DNA from: an uncultured Verrucomicrobiota bacterium | GTDB lineage: Bacteria; Verrucomicrobiota; Verrucomicrobiia; Limisphaerales; UBA9464 | NCBI GenBank assembly: GCA_903907995.1 | Contig: CAIVQH010000026.1 | Location: 62,001 to 126,000 of the forward strand | Length of the DNA: 64,000 nt | Direction of reading: 5' to 3' | Shown here: piece by piece, positions 265-32,345 of the stretch | How the letters are laid out: every line of letters starts with the position of its first letter | How positions within the stretch are numbered: the stretch's first letter is position 1 | Translations under genes and position numbers: made by a program | Notes under the pieces: generated by a model | The model's database searches: none | What the model saw: only the letters and a program-made list of their open reading frames with translations | What the model was told of the DNA's origin: nothing

Positions 265-1719
<1,455 letters not shown>

Positions 1720-1744
1720 CCGCCGGCTCCGCGCCTATTTTTCC

Positions 1745-3085
1745 ATGAGCCACCCCACGCTTCCTCCTTTCGGCCACACGCCCGCGCCTTACACCGGCCC
1801 CTCCGCCGAGGAGGTGATCGCGTTGCGCAAGGAGTTCCTCAGCCCCGCCATCTTTCACTACTACCGGCAACCGCTGATGATCGTCGAAGGTCGCGGCCAG
1901 TATCTTTACGACGAAAAGGGCCGTCGCTACCTCGACGGCTTTGCGGGCATCGTCACCGTCAGCGTCGGCCACTGCCATCCGCACGTCGTCGCGGCGGCCC
2001 AGCAGCAGACTGCACTGCTCCAGCACACCACCACGATCTACCTGCACCCGAACATCGCCGAGTACGCCCAAGCGCTCGCCGCCAAGATGCCCGGTGAGCT
2101 CAAGGTCGTGTACTTCACCAACTCCGGCTCCGAGGCCAACGACCTCGCGCTGCTCATGGCGCGCGCCTACACCGGCAACTACGATGTCATCGCGCTGCGC
2201 AACGGCTATCACGGCGGCGGCCAGGCCACGATGGGGCTCACCTCGCAGAGCACCTGGAAGTTCAACGTGCCTCACTCCTTCGGCGTGCAGCACGCGCAGA
2301 TGCCCGACACGTATCGTGGCCACTGGGGCAAGGATGATCCCGAGGCCGGCCGCAAATACGCGGACGATGTGAAGAGCCTCATCCAGTGCGGCACCTCGGG
2401 ACAGGTCGCCGGATTCATCGCCGAAAGCATCCAGGGCGTCGGCGGGGCGGTCGTGTATCCTGACGGCTACCTACAGCACGCCTACGCGCACACCCGCGCG
2501 GCGGGTGGCGTCTGCATCGCGGACGAGGTGCAGACGGGCTTCGGCCGCACGGGCACGCACTTCTGGGGCTTCGAGACGCAGGGCGTCATCCCCGACATCG
2601 TCACGATGGCCAAGGGCATCGGCAACGGCTGCCCGCTCGCCGCCGTGGTCACCACGCCGACGATCGCCCAGGGGCTCATGGGCCGGATCCACTTCAACAC
2701 CTTCGGTGGGAATCCCGTCGTCACCGCGCAGGGCAAGGCCGTGCTCGAAGTGATCGAACGCGAAGGTCTGCAGGCGAATTCGCTGCGCGTTGGCCATCAC
2801 CTCAAGGCCGGCCTTGCCAAGCTCGCCGGCAAGCACTCGCTCATCGGCGACGTGCGTGGGCTCGGCCTCATGCTCGGCGTGGAAATGGTGAAGGACCGCA
2901 CTACGAAGGTGCCAGCGAAGGAAGAATGCGCCGCCGTCTTCGAGAAGTGCCGCGAACTCGGCCTGCTCATCGGTAAGGGCGGCCTGCATGGCAACACACT
3001 CCGCATCAAACCGCCGATGTGTCTCACCTTGGCTGACGCGGACTTCCTCCTGGCGGTCGTGGACGAGGCCCTGGCCTCGGTCTGA
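1745..3085 (+). CDS. Class III (PLP) aminotransferase, AGXT2/beta-alanine-pyruvate type
   Basis: A 446-residue fold-type I aminotransferase. It shows the substrate-entry region [20 protein letters not shown], the cofactor-phosphate region [12 protein letters not shown], the conserved Asp in [13 protein letters not shown] and the Schiff-base lysine at about K290 in MAKGIGNG. The overall sequence resembles alanine-glyoxylate aminotransferase 2 and 3-aminoisobutyrate-pyruvate transaminases, which act on beta-amino acids from pyrimidine breakdown. An upstream ATG at 1688 would overlap the permease; ATG 1745 ([10 protein letters not shown]) fits the family length better. Its place directly after an NCS1 permease supports a role in degrading the imported compound. 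Confidence 0.9.
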
Positions 3086-3094
3086 TTGACCGGG

Positions 3095-3868
3095 CTATTT
3101 CGGCACCGGTTCTGGCAACAGCGCGGGAAAAGGAAGCCCGATGGCGTCCGGCGGGGCGGCGTCGAACCCCAAAGCGTTGCTCCACCAGGCGTAGGCGGCT
3201 GCGCCTTCGCCGAGTGGGGCGTTGAGGCGGAAACACACGTCGCCAAGCAGCCCGGCCAGCTCCGGTTCGGTGGGAAACGTGTTGTAGTAGCCGGTTTCGA
3301 GGCCCAGGCGCCTGGCCCAGGCGCCCGCCCGGGACGGCTCGCCTCGTGCGAGCAGTTGCAGCACACAGGTTCGGGCCAGCTGCCGGAGAAACCACACATC
3401 GATCAGCTCGAACTCGCCATCCGCCGTGAACTTCTGCTGTGCGCCAAACACGACGTGCTTCTGGGCGAAGGTGAACACGCACATGCCCAGCCCGGTCCAC
3501 GAGCGCAGGGTGTCGGCCACCGCCACGTCGCCGCCGGTGTTCTGCCCGCCGGCGGTGGCGAAGGCCGTCCCCAGCTTGCCCCACAGTTGCAGCCCCGCGC
3601 CCAGTTCCAGGAAGCGCCGCACAAACCACGGTGAACCTTGCGCGTAAGTGGGCGAGGCGAGCACCAGCAGGTCGGCGGTGGCGAGCAGCTCGTGTACGCG
3701 CGGCTTTGACGTGATGGCCGGCAGCGCCCAGACGAGTTCCACCGCGATGTCCGCCCCGGACTCCTTCACGGCCTCGCGCGCGAACCAAACAAACACCAGC
3801 GCCGCCCGGTGGCTGTCATGCCGACCGGTCGCCGTGCTGGGCGAGAAGTGCAGGAGGCGCAGGATCAT
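3095..3868 (-). CDS. Flavodoxin-fold NAD(P)H:FMN reductase-like protein
   Basis: A 257-residue protein. The N-terminal two thirds looks like a flavodoxin/WrbA fold: a beta strand followed by a phosphate-loop region (LLHFSPSTATGRHDSHRA), then LVLASPTYAQGSPWFVRRFL and TAGGQNTGGD, which match the FMN isoalloxazine loops of this superfamily. The C-terminal ~100 residues are not recognised. The start ATG overlaps the stop of the DUF3891 gene by one base (TGATG), so translation is probably coupled. It may supply reduced flavin to another enzyme of the cluster; that is inference. Confidence 0.65.
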   Translation of the reverse strand: MILRLLHFSPSTATGRHDSHRAALVFVWFAREAVKESGADIAVELVWALPAITSKPRVHELLATADLLVLASPTYAQGSPWFVRRFLELGAGLQLWGKLGTAFATAGGQNTGGDVAVADTLRSWTGLGMCVFTFAQKHVVFGAQQKFTADGEFELIDVWFLRQLARTCVLQLLARGEPSRAGAWARRLGLETGYYNTFPTEPELAGLLGDVCFRLNAPLGEGAAAYAWWSNALGFDAAPPDAIGLPFPALLPEPVPK

Positions 3869-4689
3869 CAGGCCGTCAGCTCCACCACCAGCGTCTCCGT
3901 GGGCGCGGCCGCGTACTTGGCCCGCAGCTCGTCCTGGCTCACAAAGCTGTCCCCGGCGACCGGCCGGCCCTGGATCTCAAACTGCAGCCGGGGTTGACAG
4001 AATGGCCACGGCGTCAGCTGAAAGGTCCGCAGGGCCACGCGGCGCACCTGCACCTCGCTGGTCCCGTCATCACGCAGTGGCAGCGGATGCAGCAGGCTCG
4101 CCGGACCATCAAAATCCACACAGGAAAGCAGGCTCATGTTGTCACACGCCTGCAACAGCCGGAAGTGTTCGGTGAGGCGCTCCATCGTCAGGTCTTCATC
4201 CTTGAAGCGGCCCGTGTCCGCTGCGACGGCCCGAAGTTCGAGCTGGCGTTGCTGTTGCCGGGCGATGAAAGCGTCGAGCAGCGGTAGCTCGGCGGGCTTG
4301 ATAGTGCTGCGATCCGCCCGTGCCGCTAGCAGGTTGGCGGTGTGCATGGAGACAAGGATGGCGGCGTAGGGATTGTCCGCGGCCACCAGTTCCATCGCAC
4401 TTCCGCGCACGCCGAGATAGTCGGCCAGGTCGATCTCTTCGAAGGCGGTATACTTGCCCACAAGGTCCGCCCCGAATGCGCTGGGTTTGCCGGCCCGCGT
4501 GATGAGCGGTGCAGCATCCCGCGCCGCCCATCCGTCGTCATGCCGGCGGATGCCCTCGATCACATCGGCGCGCGGCTCGGGCGGACGGAAGCGGTCATTG
4601 CCCCAGGCGGCGGCGAATTCGCCGGCGAGCGCGGCGTGGTCAGGGTGGCGGATGAGGAACCAGCCTTCGGGAGTCTTTTGGCGCAGCAT
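3868..4689 (-). CDS. DUF3891 family protein
   Basis: A 273-residue soluble protein matching the DUF3891 pattern: LIRHPDHAALAGEFAAAWGN near the N-terminus, GIRRHDDGW, then SMHTANLL and CDNMSLLSC. Conserved His and Asp residues (HPDH, RHDDGW) suggest an HD-like metal site, but no activity is established for the family. It sits in the minus-strand run between the ABC permease and the flavodoxin-like gene, separated from the permease by a palindromic repeat. A role in the same pathway is likely only from context. Confidence 0.8.
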   Translation of the reverse strand: MLRQKTPEGWFLIRHPDHAALAGEFAAAWGNDRFRPPEPRADVIEGIRRHDDGWAARDAAPLITRAGKPSAFGADLVGKYTAFEEIDLADYLGVRGSAMELVAADNPYAAILVSMHTANLLAARADRSTIKPAELPLLDAFIARQQQRQLELRAVAADTGRFKDEDLTMERLTEHFRLLQACDNMSLLSCVDFDGPASLLHPLPLRDDGTSEVQVRRVALRTFQLTPWPFCQPRLQFEIQGRPVAGDSFVSQDELRAKYAAAPTETLVVELTA

Positions 4690-4700
4690 GTTGTGGTGGA

Positions 4701-4811
4701 AGTAATCAGTGGGTCAGTAATCAGTAAGCAGTCGGTCAGCAAGTAAGCACCAGGAACAATCGCAGCCCGACTGCTTACTGATCACTGATTTACTGGTCAC
4801 TGCTCACTGGC
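4701..4811. repeat. Inverted-repeat element with AGTAATC/GATCACT-type arms
   Basis: The left arm (4701-4748) carries repeated CAGT/GTCAG units (AATCAGTGGGTCAGTAATCA). The right arm (4770-4811) carries the complementary CTTACTGATCACTGATTTAC. It lies between the ABC permease stop and the DUF3891 start and could form a long imperfect hairpin in the transcript. The units resemble those at 37826-37862. Confidence 0.75.
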
Positions 4812-4813
4812 AT

Positions 4814-5605
4814 TCATTCGGCTTCCGGTTTCATGGCGGCCTCGTGCCAGTGATGCAGGCAGAGCCACTCGAAGAAGATCACGATGAAGAAAAACAGGAA
4901 ACCCAGCGCGCTGGCCGTGAGCACCAGCGCGAAGAGGTAATCGGTCTGGAGCTGGCTGTTCGCATAGGTGATGGAATAGCCCAGCCCGCCCTGCCCTACC
5001 GCGTTCGAGCTGGCAAAGAATTCCCCCGTGATGGCGCCAATGACCGAGATGCCGGCCGAGATGCGCAGGCCCACGAAGAGGTTCGGCACCGCGTGCGGGA
5101 AGCGGAGTTTCAGCAGCACCTGCGCGCGGGAGGCATTCGCCATCATAAACAGGTCCACCAAGTTCCTGGGCACGGTGATGAGACCCTGGGTCGTGTTCGC
5201 AATGATCGGGAACAGGCAGATGATGAAGGCCACCAGCATGACCGAGCGCAGCCCGGAGCCGAACCACATCAGGATGAGCGGCGCGACCGCCACGATCGGC
5301 ACGGTCTGCAACAGGATGGTGTAGGGAAAGAAGGAGCGACGGATGACGGGAGACTGGGCGAAGAAAAACGCGATGATGACGCCCACGAAAATGCTCAGGG
5401 CGTAGCCTCCGGCAGCCTCCAGCGCCGTGATGCGAAAGGCGTTGATGAGGCTCTCGTGCCGCTCGATGACAGCCGCGCACACTGCCGGCGGCGCGGGCAG
5501 GATGTAGCCGGGAATCTTGAAGGCGATGCACGCACCCTGCCACAGGGCCAGCACGGCGACGAGCACGCCCAAAGGCCATCCGGCGGAACGGAGGAGTTTT
5601 TTCAT
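4814..5605 (-). CDS. ABC transporter permease, TauC/SsuC/ThiX type
   Basis: A 263-residue inner-membrane protein with about six membrane segments. The EAA-like loop is visible around RNLVDLFMMANASRAQVLLK...FPHAVPNLFVGLRIS. The family (taurine, sulfonate, nitrate, hydroxymethylpyrimidine, riboflavin permeases) pairs with NMT1/THI5-like binding proteins, two of which are encoded at 16548 and 19023. It follows the ATPase gene by 31 bases in the same run. It is the only importer permease of this type in the window, so both binding proteins may dock on it. Confidence 0.92.
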   Translation of the reverse strand: MKKLLRSAGWPLGVLVAVLALWQGACIAFKIPGYILPAPPAVCAAVIERHESLINAFRITALEAAGGYALSIFVGVIIAFFFAQSPVIRRSFFPYTILLQTVPIVAVAPLILMWFGSGLRSVMLVAFIICLFPIIANTTQGLITVPRNLVDLFMMANASRAQVLLKLRFPHAVPNLFVGLRISAGISVIGAITGEFFASSNAVGQGGLGYSITYANSQLQTDYLFALVLTASALGFLFFFIVIFFEWLCLHHWHEAAMKPEAE

Positions 5606-5636
5606 AGCCGTAAATCAGGGCTGCGTCGGGCGGCGT

Positions 5637-6419
5637 TCATGCCAGGGCTTTCACGGCGCGCAGGGCGGCGCTGACTTCACCCACCAGCGCGAGGTATTCG
5701 GGCGCGCTGCGCAGGGCCGCAGTGCGCGGGAACGGGAAAGGCACCGGAATCTCGCGCTCGATGCGTCCCGGCTTGGCGCGCAGCACAATGATTCGGGTGG
5801 AGAGAAAAACCGCCTCGGCGACGCTATGTGTCACGAAGAACGTGGTGAACTGGTCATTGTCACGCAGCCGCAGCACCTCTTCGTTCAGGAAATCGCGCGT
5901 CATCTCGTCGAGCGCCCCAAAGGGCTCATCCATCAGCAGGACCTTAGGTCGCGTGGCCAGGGCGCGGGCGATGGACACGCGCATCTTCATGCCGCCGCTG
6001 AGCTGGCGCGGGTAATGGTTCGCGACATCGGCGAGACCGACGAGCTTCAGCAAGTCGGTACACTTCGCACGGCGCTGTTCCCGGGTGGACTTGCGCTCGA
6101 GTTCAAGACCGAGTTCGACGTTCCCCAGCACCGTGCGCCACGGTAGCAGCGTGGCGTCCTGAAAGATGAACGACATGATCTCGCGGGCCGCGTCGGGCAT
6201 CATGCCGTCCACGGTGATCCGGCCGGATGTCAGCGGGCTCAGGCCGGACAGCAGCCGCAGCAGCGTGGACTTCCCGCAGCCGCTCGGCCCGATCAGCGAT
6301 ACGAAATCGCCTTTCGCCACGGTGAGACTGACGCGGTCGAGCGCGGTCGAGCCGGAAGACCACGTCTTGGTGACGTCAGCCAGGGAAATGAAGGGTGGAG
6401 TTGAGGAGGCGTCGCTCAC
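5637..6419 (-). CDS. ABC transporter ATP-binding protein, TauB/SsuB type
   Basis: A 260-residue nucleotide-binding subunit. It has Walker A GPSGCGKST near residue 43, the Q-loop in FIFQDATLLPW, the signature LSGGMKMRVSIARAL, Walker B VLLMDEPFGALD and the switch His in FFVTHSVAEA. It drives uptake through the downstream permease. The start overlaps the stop of the upstream hydrolase gene by four bases (ATGA), so it is part of the same operon. Confidence 0.95.
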   Translation of the reverse strand: MSDASSTPPFISLADVTKTWSSGSTALDRVSLTVAKGDFVSLIGPSGCGKSTLLRLLSGLSPLTSGRITVDGMMPDAAREIMSFIFQDATLLPWRTVLGNVELGLELERKSTREQRRAKCTDLLKLVGLADVANHYPRQLSGGMKMRVSIARALATRPKVLLMDEPFGALDEMTRDFLNEEVLRLRDNDQFTTFFVTHSVAEAVFLSTRIIVLRAKPGRIEREIPVPFPFPRTAALRSAPEYLALVGEVSAALRAVKALA

Positions 6420-8440
6420 GGGGTGGCGTGGCTTGGGTCCGGGAGAGAAATGATGGGCAGCTCCAGTGACGAAGGATGATCCGCGTCATGCAGGATCTGC
6501 GTGCGCGCGTGCCGCCAGTCCCATGAGGTGGCGAAAACCGGTGGAACCGCGCAGTTCGGATGCCGGTCGTAGAGCGGGAAGGCGCTGCCGCTGATCTCCA
6601 GGCGGAGCCTTTCGCCGGGAGCGAAGACACAGCTCGTGGGCTCCAGCGCGAATTCCCAGCGCTGCGGCGTGTCCGGCTCGTGGGCCGGATCGCGAAAGAG
6701 AAAGCCGCTGCGCGCGATGCCCAGGCAGACATTGAGCGCCCGGCCATCCCGGGTGACGCGCACCAGCTTGGCGACCAGGTCGGTCTGTGTGGCAGAGGTC
6801 TGGGCGAACAGCACCACGCGGGGCGCTCCACACACGTGCAGCCGCCCGGCCAGTTCCGGCCCGGTATAGACGAGCACATTGTTGAGCAGCTCGGCCCGCG
6901 CGAGGTTGAACTGTCCCGGCGCCCCATTGCCCGGGGCCAGCACCGGCACCTCCGGCTCATAGCAAAACGAATCCCTCGGCTCCTCCGAAAGCGGCGCCGC
7001 CTCACTCAACGCGCCATCCCCCTTCGACGAATTGGCAAAGCCGCCCGAATGCAGAAACCAGGAGACCGTCCGCAGCGAGTCCCCTCTCCCCTCAACGGGG
7101 AGAGGGCCAGGGTGAGGGGTGGGAACGCCCAAGACCTTCCCCTTACCCGACAACCCACCAACGGCTATCCGCTCCGAGTCTCCGGTTTTCAAAACCGCCA
7201 TTGCACGCGAGGCCTCACTCCTCACCCCGCCCCTCTCCCCGTTGAGGGGAGAGGGAGCATCGGCTCCCCCGGTATAACCGGAAGGCCACCCGCTCAGCCC
7301 ATGCCACCGGTTCTCGCCTAGGGCGAAGAGCCGCACCTTGGGCTCCTGCGCAAATTCCCCGCTGTCCTTCAGCCAGTGGTTGAACCAGCGCAGCAGCATG
7401 GCATCGGTGTCCAGGTTCGCGGCCGGACCAAAATCACTCTCCCCGGCGAACTGTCCCCACGGGATATGCACCCAAGGGCCCGCTACCAGATATTGGTTCG
7501 CCCGCGCCGCTTCCGAACCGGCGTGCGCGACGAGATTCTCATAGAGCGAGATGCTCCCGAACAGGTACGGATCAAACCAGCCGGCCAGGTGCAGGCCCGG
7601 AATCCGGATGCGGTCGTAGCGGCGCGAGATGTCGTGGGCGGCCCAATAATCCCCCGGCTCCGTGTGCGTCACCCAGTCGCGGAAATACGAGGGCAGGCCG
7701 CGCGCATTCAGTTCCGGAATCCGCGCGTACGGGGTCTGGGCAAACAGGGACGGCAACATCAGCCACGCGGCTTCGAGGGCCTCGCCCGCCCCGCGCAGTT
7801 TCAGCCGGCGCGCGTCGGTCTTCAGCATCTGCGTCGCCCAGCCGATCGTGCCGGCCAGCCGCAGCGCCCCATGATGGTAGAACCACCCGTGAAACAGGTC
7901 GCCCGCCGTCTGCGCCGGCGCAATGCAGGCCAGTCCCGCAGGCTGTTCGGCGGCGGCGAGCAGTTGCGTCATGCCCTGGTAGCTGAAGCCGTACATGCCG
8001 ATGCGCCCGTTGCTTTCCGGACGCCCAGCGAGCCAGTCGATCGTGAACGCGCCATCGCTGCCCTCATCGCGGAACGGATAAAAACGCCCCGAACTGTCGC
8101 CCCGTCCGCGCACGTCCTGGATGACGACGTTGTATCCGTGCCGCGCAAACCACTCGGGCTGCGCGTAGGTCACCGTCGTGGCAATCGCCCGGCCATACGG
8201 CTGGCGCACCAGCAGCGTGGGCGCGGGCGGACCGTCCCCGGCCCCGGGCGGATAATAATGGTCCGAGACCAGTTCCGTGCCGTCGGGCAGACGGAGGCGC
8301 ACACCCCGTTCGAGCGTCACACCGGAGCCGCAGTCCACGAGCTGCCCCGGACTTTCCACCGGCACCCGCTTCGGACGCGGCGAAGATTTCCCCCCGGCGC
8401 GCGCCGGGCGCTTCTGGGGGGCTGATTTCTTCGATGGCAT
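6416..8440 (-). CDS. CocE/NonD-family alpha/beta hydrolase with a repeat insertion
   Basis: A 674-residue hydrolase of the X-Pro dipeptidyl-peptidase/cocaine-esterase type. The N-terminal alpha/beta domain shows YNVVIQDVRGRGDSSG and the nucleophile elbow YGFSYQG (Ser about 153). The C-terminal jelly-roll domain is recognisable from PGQFNLARAELLNNVLVYTG to the end. Between them, at about residues 390-460, lies a stretch (PLNGERGGVRSE to PHPGPLPVEGRGDSLR) that is the translation of a pair of REP-like hairpins and is foreign to the family. The reading frame stays open across it. The enzyme probably hydrolyses an ester or amide within this cluster. The start ATG at 8440 follows the creatininase-family gene by 37 bases. 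Confidence 0.9.
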   Translation of the reverse strand: MPSKKSAPQKRPARAGGKSSPRPKRVPVESPGQLVDCGSGVTLERGVRLRLPDGTELVSDHYYPPGAGDGPPAPTLLVRQPYGRAIATTVTYAQPEWFARHGYNVVIQDVRGRGDSSGRFYPFRDEGSDGAFTIDWLAGRPESNGRIGMYGFSYQGMTQLLAAAEQPAGLACIAPAQTAGDLFHGWFYHHGALRLAGTIGWATQMLKTDARRLKLRGAGEALEAAWLMLPSLFAQTPYARIPELNARGLPSYFRDWVTHTEPGDYWAAHDISRRYDRIRIPGLHLAGWFDPYLFGSISLYENLVAHAGSEAARANQYLVAGPWVHIPWGQFAGESDFGPAANLDTDAMLLRWFNHWLKDSGEFAQEPKVRLFALGENRWHGLSGWPSGYTGGADAPSPLNGERGGVRSEASRAMAVLKTGDSERIAVGGLSGKGKVLGVPTPHPGPLPVEGRGDSLRTVSWFLHSGGFANSSKGDGALSEAAPLSEEPRDSFCYEPEVPVLAPGNGAPGQFNLARAELLNNVLVYTGPELAGRLHVCGAPRVVLFAQTSATQTDLVAKLVRVTRDGRALNVCLGIARSGFLFRDPAHEPDTPQRWEFALEPTSCVFAPGERLRLEISGSAFPLYDRHPNCAVPPVFATSWDWRHARTQILHDADHPSSLELPIISLPDPSHATP
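7079..7257. repeat. REP-like hairpin pair inside a coding sequence
   Basis: Two copies in opposite orientation. Each is a hairpin of CCCTCTCCCC and GGGGAGAGGG with a 5-base loop, plus a GGGTGAGGGG tail: 7079-7123 and 7217-7257. The second copy is almost the exact reverse complement of the first. Both lie within the CocE/NonD-like gene and are translated in frame. Confidence 0.9.
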
Positions 8441-16309: not shown

Positions 16310-16510
16310 CTTCGTCAGGTTCAGCCGCCCCAATGGGGCGAAACAAGCCAGCCCGGGGCATCGCCCCGGGTGTTATGGAAGGAGAAACCCAGCCCTGAAG
16401 GGGCGGGAGAAAACCTGTCACGCCCCTTCGGGGCTGGAGGTTGTGAAAATGTCCGCCCAGGGCGTTGCCCTGGGCTGGCTTGTGCCGCGCCGTTGGCGCT
16501 GGAAGGCGGT
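16310..16510. repeat. Multi-hairpin GC-rich repeat element
   Basis: Successive stem-loops: CGCCCCAATGGGGCG near 16327, CCCGGGGCATCGCCCCGGG near 16352, CGCCCCTTCGGGG near 16420 and CCCAGGGCGTTGCCCTGGG near 16458. It lies between the TonB receptor and the first binding protein and explains the open frame upstream of the binding protein's real start. Its layout recalls the element at 29482 and 32123, with different sequence. Confidence 0.75.
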
Positions 16511-29481: not shown

Positions 29482-29702
29482 CAATCCCAACGGGATTGAA
29501 TCATTCAGCCCGGCGTTGCCTGACGCAGGAAGGCTACGCCGGGTAGACCAAAGAAATAGTGGTCATATCTGAAGGAGATGAATCAAAGCCCATCGGAAAA
29601 CCGATGCAACCCGCGTTGGGGTTGAAGACATCTTGCCCTATGACCCAGGGTAGTCGCTGCGCGCCAACCCTGGGCTAAAAGATTGAATCCCTTTGGGATT
29701 CT
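29482..29702. repeat. Multi-hairpin structured element, copy 1
   Basis: A ~220-base chain of stem-loops: ATCCC-aac-GGGAT, CCCGGCG...CGCCGGG, GACCA...TGGTC, a conserved linker CTGAAGGAGATGAATCAAAG, CATCGG-aaaa-CCGATG, AACCC...GGGTT, CCAGGGT...ACCCTGG and GAATCCC-ttt-GGGATTC. Copy 2 is at 32123-32345 with compensatory stem changes. The element fills the gap 29462-29760; no gene is seen there. Confidence 0.85.
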
Positions 29703-29760
29703 CAAAGGTGCTACCAACCCCGGCCGCGTTGCGCCCATACCCCGATCTTCCCCTTACACA

Positions 29761-30096
29761 TCACACCGGCACCAAATCCTTGTCCTCCTGCTCCTCGGTC
29801 ACTTCGGCCTCGTCGGTGTTGTAGTGCAGGGGCGCGAAGCGTTCCGAATTGAAGCCGAGCTCGCCGTTCAGGCCGGTCCGCAGCGCCGGATCGGAGGGGT
29901 TGCGAATTTCCTCGAGCAGCACGCCGATTTCGCCGTCCTTCTGTCCGCTTTCGGCCCTCGTGAGGTTGCCACGGCCGATGTAGATCGCGCGGACAGTGTA
30001 CACCGAATCCTTCTTCGGCAGTTGGTCAAACAGCTCGTAGGCGAGCGGCGGAAACTCGTCGTTGATGCAGACCACTTTTTGACCCTTCTGAAACAT
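29761..30096 (-). CDS. Small SH3-like hypothetical protein
   Basis: A 111-residue acidic protein beginning MFQKGQKVVCINDEFPPLAY, which resembles small beta-barrel (SH3/KOW-like) proteins of unknown function in Verrucomicrobiota and phages. It continues KKDSVYTVRAIYIG and ends in an acidic tail. No catalytic motif is visible. It is divergent from the secreted protein gene at 30273. Confidence 0.6.
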   Translation of the reverse strand: MFQKGQKVVCINDEFPPLAYELFDQLPKKDSVYTVRAIYIGRGNLTRAESGQKDGEIGVLLEEIRNPSDPALRTGLNGELGFNSERFAPLHYNTDEAEVTEEQEDKDLVPV

Positions 30097-30272
30097 GCGC
30101 GGAGATTTTTAAGGCTAAAAAGGCGAGGCGCCAGCCCAAGGTGCGTCAATTCCGCCGTTGCCTGCCCGGGGGATTTCTGCGAAAGCGTCGGGCCGACGTG
30201 AGCCCGTCGCACGTCTGCCGGGAGGATTCGGCAACGTATTACCGCGATGGGCGCCGTCGGTTTTGTCCGCCC

Positions 30273-30776
30273 ATGAAGACCCGTACTCTGAAGTTTGCCG
30301 CCACCCTTGCCGCGCTGTCCCTGCTGAGCCTGTCCGCCGTTTCGGCCCTCGCCCAGACCGCCACCAACGTCATTTCCACCAACACCCCCGCCCTGAAGCA
30401 CACCAAGGCCAAGGCGGAGAAGAAGGAGTAGACCGATGACGTGGCGAAATCGAAGATCTACCCCTTCCACGGGACGGTCGCCGCCGTGGACAAGAAGGCG
30501 CTGACCATCACGCTGCAGGGCAAGGAAAAGCCTCGCGTGATCACTATCGGCTCCAAGAGCCTGATCGAAAAGGATGGCAAGCCGGCCACCTTCGGCCAGG
30601 TCGCCGTCGGCGACTACGCCAAGGGCCGCGTGGAAAAGGAGGGCGACAAGGAAGTGCTGCTGAAGGGCCTTTTTGGACCCGCCCCCGAAAAGAAGACCGG
30701 CGAGGCCAAGCCCGCCAAGAAGTCGAAGGCCACCGCCGCGCCCGGCACGACCCCGGCAGCGACGGAGGCGAAGTAG
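30273..30776 (+). pseudogene. Secreted Lys-rich small protein interrupted by an in-frame TAG
   Basis: ATG 30273 encodes a clear signal peptide (MKTRTLKFAATLAALSLLSL...ALAQ) and a Lys/Ala-rich stretch ending KAKAEKKE, then TAG at 30429-30431. The same frame continues with TDDVAKSKIYPFHGTVAAVD, a beta-rich domain of about 70 residues and a Lys/Pro/Ala tail to the TAG... stop at 30776. Reading across gives one 167-residue secreted protein of a type seen in Verrucomicrobiota. The stop may be a mutation, a sequencing error or a read-through site. GTG 30441 could start a separate cytoplasmic protein, but then the signal peptide would be orphaned. Confidence 0.7.
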
Positions 30777-30951
30777 TCAATCCGTCACAATTTTGAACAG
30801 CGGCCGTCCTGGTTCCAGGTCGGCCGCTTTTTCATTTTCCGGAATCCCGCGTTGGAAACTGTTGCCGAAATTCCGCTACCGGCGTGTTCTTCCCTGTACG
30901 ACAACTTCCCCGCACATTGATTGAAGCAACCCTTCTGAAAGCACACGACCT

Positions 30952-32034
30952 ATGGGCCTGATCGACTATCTCAAGACGCAGCTGCTGGAAATCATCCAGT
31001 GGGAGGATGACTCGCGCGACACCATCTCCTGGCGCTTCCCTGACCAGGACAAGGAGATCAAGCGCGGCGCGCAGCTCATCGTCCGCGAATCGCAGACGGC
31101 GCAGTTCATCTACGCCGGCGCGTTCGGCGACACCTTCGGGCCGGGCACGCACTCGCTCGTCACCGACAACATCCCGATCCTCTCCACGCTCAAGGGCTGG
31201 AAGTACGGCTTCGAAAGCCCCTTCAAGGCCGACGTCTATTTCGTCAACACGCGTCTGTTCACCGGCAACAAGTGGGGCACGAGCAATCCGATCATGCTCC
31301 GGGATGCCGACTTTGGCATCGTCCGCGCACGGGCCTTCGGCACCTACGACTTCAAGGTCGTGGACGTGAAGACCTTCCTCAAGGAGGTCGCCGGCACCGA
31401 CGCCCATTTCCGCCTGGAGGAGTTCCAGGACACCATGCGCTCGCGGCTCGTGAGCGCGTTCACCGATGCGCTCGCCTCGAGCAAGGTGCCGGTGCTCGAC
31501 ATCGCCACGCGCTACACCGAGCTCGGGGAGGCGCTGCTGCCGGTGCTGAATCCGATCCTCACGGCGAAGTACGGCCTCGAGCTGGGCAGCTTCATCGTCG
31601 AAAACGTGAGCGTGCCGCCCGAGGTGGAGCAGGCCATCGACAAGCGCAGCAGCATGGCGGCGATCGGCAACCTGAACGACTACGTGAAGCTCCAGTTCGC
31701 CGAAAGCCTCGGCAAGAACCAGGGCACCGGGACCGCCGGCAGTGCGGCCGAGCTGGCCATGGGCTTTGGCCTCGCGGGCCAGCTCATGAACCAGCCCGGC
31801 GGAATGCTCGGTGGGCCCCAGGGCACACCGCCAGCCGCACCGACCGCACCGTCCGGTGGCGCCGCCGCTTCGGCCATGCCGGAACTGCTCTCGCCCGCCG
31901 AGGTCGCGCAAAAGCTCGGCGTGGGTGAAGCCGACGTGCTGTCCTCACTCGCCGACGGCTCGCTGAAAGGCAAGAAGATCGGCAGCCAGTGGCGCATCAC
32001 GAAGCAGGCGCTGGAAGAGTTTTTGAAGAGCTAG
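30952..32034 (+). CDS. SPFH-domain protein with C-terminal excisionase-like HTH domain
   Basis: A 360-residue protein. The first ~270 residues match the virion-core/YdjI type SPFH family: MGLIDYLKTQLLEIIQWEDD, VRESQTAQFIYAGAFGDTFG, FGIVRARAFGTYDFKV and FIVENVSVPPEVEQAIDKRS. After a Gly/Pro/Ala-rich linker, the C-terminal 50 residues (LLSPAEVAQKLGVGEADVLS...KIGSQWRITKQALEEFL) look like an HTH_17/excisionase-type domain. Relatives often carry a zinc ribbon or GYF-like domain there. Such proteins are thought to scaffold at membranes under stress; the DNA-binding-like tail may instead bind peptide or protein. Confidence 0.85.
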   Translation: MGLIDYLKTQLLEIIQWEDDSRDTISWRFPDQDKEIKRGAQLIVRESQTAQFIYAGAFGDTFGPGTHSLVTDNIPILSTLKGWKYGFESPFKADVYFVNTRLFTGNKWGTSNPIMLRDADFGIVRARAFGTYDFKVVDVKTFLKEVAGTDAHFRLEEFQDTMRSRLVSAFTDALASSKVPVLDIATRYTELGEALLPVLNPILTAKYGLELGSFIVENVSVPPEVEQAIDKRSSMAAIGNLNDYVKLQFAESLGKNQGTGTAGSAAELAMGFGLAGQLMNQPGGMLGGPQGTPPAAPTAPSGGAAASAMPELLSPAEVAQKLGVGEADVLSSLADGSLKGKKIGSQWRITKQALEEFLKS

Positions 32035-32122
32035 GAGGGTTTAGAAATAGGTGTGGCCAAACAAAGCCAACGGCACCGACGGGGCGGTTGAGAAGATGAA
32101 GTGAGTGGGTAGCTTTCTCTAT

Positions 32123-32345
32123 TTACCCCAACGGGGTTGCATCATTCTGCCCAGTGTTGCCGATCAGATCGGCTACGCTGGGTAAGGCCCCGGATATTGG
32201 CCATCTCTGAAGGAGATGAATCAAAGCTCCATGATCAGACGATCCAACCCACGTTGGGGTTGAAGATCATTCTGTCGAGTCCACCAGGGTAGTCCCGCGA
32301 TGCGGGTCAACCCTGAGCTAAATGATGGAATCCCGTCGGGATTCT
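32123..32345. repeat. Multi-hairpin structured element, copy 2
   Basis: Aligns along its whole length with copy 1 (29482) in the same orientation. The linker CTGAAGGAGATGAATCAAAG is identical. Stems differ with pairing kept: ACCCC-aac-GGGGT, CCCAGTG...CGCTGGG, GGCC...GGCC, CCCGC-gat-GCGGG. It fills most of the gap 32035-32459. Confidence 0.85.

Follow-up and report, generated by a model that had tools for sequence, protein, structure and literature searches.

The DNA analysed here, a 64,000-nucleotide stretch from an uncultured Verrucomicrobiota bacterium (assembly GCA_903907995.1, contig CAIVQH010000026.1, positions 62,001 to 126,000 of the forward strand; hereafter the window), carries two copies of a multi-hairpin element of about 220 bp, in one and the same orientation and each lying between two convergent genes. 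No open reading frame (ORF) of at least 90 amino acids is found inside either copy. Each copy consists of six local hairpins, called h1, h2 and h3 from the ends inwards, on a left (L) and a right (R) half. As developed below, each copy is very probably a non-autonomous derivative, resembling a miniature inverted-repeat transposable element (MITE), of a single-strand HUH/Y1 transposon whose gene has been lost. The copies and their parts are as follows.

29483..29702, + strand: element copy 1, six hairpins, 220 bp, between two convergent genes (sequence; covariance model, 29484-29702)
29483..29497, + strand: copy 1 h1L, AATCCC/GGGATT (sequence, covariation)
29509..29543, + strand: copy 1 h2L, CCCGGCGT/ACGCCGGG, GTAG foot on the bottom strand
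29564..29580, + strand: copy 1 h3L, with a single internal mismatch; holds much of the linker shared by the two copies
29607..29624, + strand: copy 1 h3R, CAACCC/GGGTTG (sequence, covariation)
29644..29674, + strand: copy 1 h2R, CCCAGGGT/ACCCTGGG, GTAG foot and inner stem
29686..29700, + strand: copy 1 h1R, AATCCC/GGGATT (sequence, covariation)
32125..32345, + strand: element copy 2, six hairpins, 221 bp, between two convergent genes (sequence, covariance model)
32125..32137, + strand: copy 2 h1L, ACCCC/GGGGT, a compensatory change relative to the 18 other copies in the genome
32150..32182, + strand: copy 2 h2L, CCCAGTGT/ACGCTGGG, GTAG foot on the bottom strand
32202..32218, + strand: copy 2 h3L (sequence, covariation)
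32245..32262, + strand: copy 2 h3R (sequence, covariation)
32285..32315, + strand: copy 2 h2R, inner stem with GTAG foot; this copy has lost the two outermost pairs (sequence, covariation)
32329..32343, + strand: copy 2 h1R (sequence, covariation)

An initial annotation, made from the letters alone, had already recognised the two copies, with limits that sequence and covariance model displace by 1-2 bases, and had taken a lack of copies beyond this pair to count against its reading. Such copies exist: BLAST searches of the source genome (5.1 Mb, 60 contigs) identified 19 near-full-length copies with 70-100% identity to copy 1, together with shorter pieces. A covariance-model search of the genome, in which 150 of 1147 candidates were scored, ranked the same 19 copies first and added weaker ones, including a full-length match at C54:51032-51254. 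In the alignment of the 19 copies (235 columns), the six local hairpins, in the order h1-h2-h3 then h3-h2-h1, are formed by standard pairs in 97.8% of 731 cells. Changes on both sides of a pair occur in 10 pairs and 43 cells, compared with means of 5.5 and 13.9 after shuffling, values that none of the 500 shuffles reached. Because kinship alone can beat such shuffles without any structure, it also matters that the signal is lost when partners are slid by 1-3 columns and that the pair types in h3 are diverse, with A-U, U-A and G-C at one position. The covariation check that had been proposed together with the pair thus returned a strong signal for all six hairpins. Folding z-scores are -7.1 (RNA) and -7.3 (DNA) for copy 1 and -6.9 (DNA) for copy 2. 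The outer arms of the element are mutually complementary, and a conserved end-to-end pairing was considered and rejected: it shows zero double changes, and therefore the supported structure is that of six local hairpins. As to finer details, the linker said to be identical in both copies is present, mostly as the 3' side of h3, and the compensatory stems that had been quoted can all be read in the sequence; one of them, GACC/GGTC versus GGCC/GGCC, falls in a variable spacer and is absent from the 19-copy RNAalifold consensus.

Could this family be a free-standing structured RNA, such as a riboswitch or a small RNA, unrelated to transposition? Covarying hairpins speak for it, and a family of this kind could indeed pass for a structured RNA. 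Nevertheless, Rfam gave no match at gathering scores anywhere in the window and none on either copy up to E=1, on which ground an Rfam-type RNA was rejected, and the five copies placed between tandem genes are oriented three along and two against the direction of the genes. Moreover, the halves of the element recur as inverted repeats flanking a transposase gene across species, and copies are present or absent between close species. We therefore give next to no credence to an RNA origin. Where the initial annotation had left the choice between a conserved RNA and a single-stranded DNA structure, as opposed to a spacer repeat, the covariation is real and it is the DNA option that we favour, in the form of the two ends of an HUH/Y1 element without its gene.

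The association with a transposase is most clearly seen on another contig of the source genome, where a Y1 transposase ORF (C55:7231-7683) lies exactly between a left half (~7104-7207) and a right half (~7682-7788) of the element, arranged h1-h2-h3 on the left of the gene and h3-h2-h1 on its right. A gene-less full copy (C55:7890-8114) is found about 100 bp from the right half. Using half-element profiles made from the source genome's 19 copies only, and seeking halves in inverted orientation within 250 bp of homologous transposases in other genomes, we found halves on both sides at 15/17 loci whose protein is at least 70% identical, 4/6 at 60-70%, 11/28 at 56-60% and 9/29 at 50-56%. Sixteen of the 17 closest loci are labelled Verrucomicrobiota and one just 'bacterium'. 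Halves of the C55 type were found at none of the other three strong Y1 loci of the source genome, and the element ends therefore go with the C55-type transposase. At six of 30 transposase loci (relatives plus the genome's own C55), correctly oriented halves directly adjoin the gene on both sides. Across the 58 genomes searched, element DNA was found in 23, source genome included, and transposase homologues in 35. The copies thus have no coding capacity, share inverted ends with an autonomous element and are dispersed, as MITEs are. At one locus of this survey (L164), on a contig labelled as a Desulfovibrionales metagenome-assembled genome, strong element halves accompany a transposase of 58% identity, which may reflect horizontal transfer or a binning error.

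Comparison with the closest species (G003), which is 87-93% identical in segments around the window, adds presence/absence evidence. Both window copies (L001, L009) and a third copy (L007) are absent from G003, where the surrounding genes are collinear, and five other copies occur in both species at orthologous positions. Status in G003 was settled in this way for 8 of the 19 copies, and one more (L016) is at a rearranged site. A further copy (L128) exists in G003 only. The C55 site is arranged differently in the two species: in alignment, the G003 transposase element matches the source genome's gene-less copy in its right half and in the gene downstream. Around this same downstream gene, the transposase element and the gene-less copy are rearranged between C55 (L066) and G003:C69 (L067), hinting at recombination between direct halves.

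A model of how the copies may have arisen can be proposed from these data. The parental element, of about 690 bp, would comprise a left end (h1-linker-h2-spacer-h3), one HUH/Y1 transposase ORF and a right end (h3-spacer-h2-linker-h1), and internal deletion of the transposase gene would yield the gene-less copies, which would then be mobilised in trans by the transposase. The enzyme is predicted to act on the single strand in its folded form, with the GTAG-footed h2 hairpin as the probable recognition site; its catalytic tyrosine would nick beside the hairpin, and the segment would be moved by a peel-and-paste-like or a copying reaction. On this model, the covariation would have arisen because source elements with ends that fold and suit the transposase were selected. 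Single-strand recognition, nicking and mobilisation in trans are borrowed by analogy from what is described for IS200/IS605 and TnpAREP (PMC6006769, PMC8266576).

To which group of transposases does the C55 protein belong? Five Y1_Tnp matches are present in the source genome, four of them strong and one, of 23 bits, just at the cut-off. The C55 protein matches Y1_Tnp and, in NCBIfam, the IS200/IS605 transposase; its nearest solved chains are single-strand transposases, including TnpA of ISHp608 (IS608), with at the top 2xm3, which we take to be TnpA of ISDra2. DHVH, WQ and Y---Q--HH are conserved in C55-type transposases, and a conserved C-terminal stretch is seen in a nine-row alignment (A2, from which locus L073 was omitted as it has a stop inside the gene). 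Of 523 confirmed relatives, the best 80 entered the motif and flank tests as well as the search with half-element profiles, so that all of these counts describe the closest relatives only. Y---Q--HH was found in 80/80 of them and in all four strong proteins of the source genome, in a scan whose peptide patterns favoured part of the motif. The HUH motif reads DHVH in 75 of the relatives, DHIH in four and DHLH in one; in the source genome it reads DHVH in C55 and L034, NHVH in L031 and DHAH in L033, so that two of these four deviate from DH[IV]H. The published signature of TnpA-Y1 subclass 1.2 is DHVH, WQ and Y---Q--HH in a protein of about 150 amino acids with few copies per genome (Quentin et al. 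2018, PMC6006769), and in all of these the present transposase is alike. Judged by these motifs, and not by the authors' hidden Markov model, the C55 transposase looks like a member of subclass 1.2. The subclass is given there as REP 'no', as generally lacking both the secondary structures typical of IS200 termini and the properties of an insertion sequence (IS), and as hosted mostly by Cyanobacteria and Bacteroidetes (PMC6006769). In contrast, as seen here, in Verrucomicrobiota and other phyla, it has inverted ends rich in hairpins and a gene-less family in dispersed copies.

This difference also shows in a wider set of genes with the subclass 1.2 signature. We aligned the 220-base flanks of each gene to each other's reverse complement, with pairs 470-700 bases away as controls, at 81 loci (the 80 relatives and three loci of the source genome other than C55, less L168 and L193, which were too short); the shuffles moved two-base blocks and were not strict dinucleotide shuffles. 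Flanking inverted repeats at z>5 were found at 62/81 loci and at 0/72 controls. Folding z-scores fell below -2 in 54/79 upstream flanks, 45/79 downstream flanks and 12/146 controls. Perfect hairpins, counted at the 80 loci in 79 flanks on each side (upstream and downstream), averaged 2.01 and 1.94 per flank versus 0.68 in controls, and at least three were present on both sides in 18/78. The reported absence of terminal structures was hence not what we found at the loci tested. All four strong transposases of the source genome have hairpin-rich inverted ends, each of its own sequence; the count of three hairpins per side is partly a by-eye reading, the script counting two to four. Three of them (L031, L033 and L034) are further Y---Q--HH genes on contig C46, each inside its own hairpin-rich inverted ends. 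Two plasmid-borne members from Bacteroidota also have inverted ends, with z of 12.8 and 12.6; one (L219) has hairpins at both ends and resembles the hairpin plan, and in the other (L220) the inverted repeat is repetitive and the upstream side has no perfect 6-bp hairpin. We found no earlier description of multi-hairpin ends for subclass 1.2 in the literature searched. The window itself holds, at 16327-16502, a second element that by eye follows the same h1-h2-h3/h3-h2-h1 plan with a different sequence (50 bits with the covariance model). BLAST gave no other full copy of it in the genome, just two short end matches, and it is possibly a gene-less relative of another Y1 transposase.

Taken together, the element appears to represent the substrate family of a so far orphan transposase class, the novelty being the multi-hairpin ends seen in subclass 1.2 along with the dispersed gene-less family. 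On balance, we lean towards the broader view that subclass 1.2, far from being an orphan HUH nuclease, comprises phylum-spanning minimal single-strand transposons, with private inverted multi-hairpin ends (h1-linker-h2-spacer-h3) for each gene, whose six-hairpin gene-less derivatives spread and were in some cases later conserved between genes. If true, a transposase subclass described without recognisable ends would gain a concrete DNA substrate that several species carry together with the matching gene, and its activity would be directly testable.

How does the element compare with known systems? IS200/IS605 elements (subclass 1.1; IS608, ISDra2) are alike in having a Y1 HUH transposase and hairpin ends; they carry one subterminal hairpin per end, and gene-less derivatives of the PATE type exist. 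They differ in that their transposases read Y[IV]ENQ and their subterminal hairpins are small (PMC6006769, Table 1), whereas here Y---Q--HH is accompanied by three inverted-repeat hairpins per end. A second candidate is the class 2 REP/RAYT system. The tetranucleotide GTAG stands beside the inner stem of h2, on the outward-reading strand of each half, in 18/19 right and 15/19 left halves, in agreement with the GT[AG]G foot of that class, and the paired inverted arrangement is REPIN-like. REPtrons and REPINs likewise have GTAG-footed palindromic units in inverted pairs, flank a transposase gene and are dispersed between genes (PMC3733652, PMC8266576). However, REPs are 20-40 bp long and go with Y---NP transposases (PMC3733652, PMC8266576), whereas the present unit measures 220 bp, has three hairpins per end and goes with a protein that reads Y---Q--HH, lacks Y---NP and, at E 0.001, does not match the model of REP-associated transposases. 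Membership of the canonical REP/RAYT family was rejected on the motif and on this missing match, and we regard canonical REP/REPIN elements of a class 2 RAYT (TnpAREP) as a very improbable identity. The single-strand HUH/Y1 transposon that we favour as the source would, with its GTAG-footed hairpins, link class 1 (IS200-like) and class 2 (REP-like) Y1 transposases. Finally, TIRtrons, for which a GGGGWSAS motif is described, resemble it in having a tyrosine transposase gene (TIRYT) between long inverted repeats, some self-complementary and some forming repeat families (Di Nocera et al. 2013, PMC3733652). The 26 described TIRYTs are placed in subclasses 2.1, 2.2 and 2.5, not 1.2 (PMC6006769), and the three-hairpin plan is not in the TIRYT description as given in the available part of its source (PMC3733652).

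Several observations weigh against a transposon origin or narrow its reach. The case is built on anatomy, covariation, the association of halves with transposases and presence/absence. The remaining copies are 70-81% identical to copy 1, and recent amplification is thus not evident. A base-precise empty site was sought in G003 for copies 1, 2 and L007 and none was found, the genes being collinear and the intergenic sequence diverged, since such sequence turns over. Nineteen of the 81 loci have no significant inverted repeat, and GTAG is only mildly enriched in the wider transposase set (downstream flanks 33/59 versus 16/59 on the opposite strand, upstream 30 versus 18). Besides the six of the 30 transposase loci with abutting halves, five have one-sided or displaced halves and one shows a weak piece; the other 18, most of them coding for less similar proteins, lack halves. 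Some genomes have many element matches (for example 32 in G010 and 12 in G054) and zero transposase matches at E 0.001. Lastly, elements diverge less than their adjacent flanks at orthologous sites, unlike simple neutral decay after insertion.

This last point bears on the possibility that the copies, derived from transposon ends, now serve the host as RNA or DNA structures, be it as bidirectional terminators, as stabilisers of 3' ends or as protein sites, and are kept by selection at their present places. Such a reading concerns events after insertion and is compatible with the one we favour. In the source genome, 13 of the 18 copies that a simple codon-usage gene finder could classify (L008 has no right-hand gene) are flanked by convergent genes (none by divergent genes), versus 7/33 convergent among window gaps of more than 60 bp (Fisher p 7e-4); in other genomes, however, the bias is just 2/8 classifiable copies, with two more unclassifiable. 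In three clean orthologous pairs, 7/234 stem positions differ, compared with 13/196 in spacers and 44/239 in flanks within 40 bases; the stem versus flank difference is marked (p 3e-8), but that between stem and spacer is not significant (p 0.11). Two further ortholog pairs keep their stems (4/156 differ) with left spacers that are only 45% alike, a mosaic that suggests conversion or replacement between copies, and because of these a table of all five pairs overstates the conservation of hairpins in place. Terminator-like matches number 7 versus 3.1 expected in the region scanned; three fall inside copy 1, on the minus strand, but none inside copy 2. We judge a present-day host function of the inserted copies unlikely, though possible.

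Some observations concern individual loci. In G010, a single 6.4-kb stretch (L225, C110:7800-16000, at 541-6927) holds a cluster of one near-full element and nine that are halved or partial, in a genome without a transposase match at E 0.001. In the window, the initial annotation had pointed out that the two copies flank an SPFH gene and an amber-interrupted gene. No tie between these and the element was supported, as G003 has the genes without either copy; a relation was rejected, these being the genes between two insertions. The amber-interrupted gene, of a small secreted type, lies at 30273-30776 and contains an in-frame stop, and its ortholog in G003 is open across that position.

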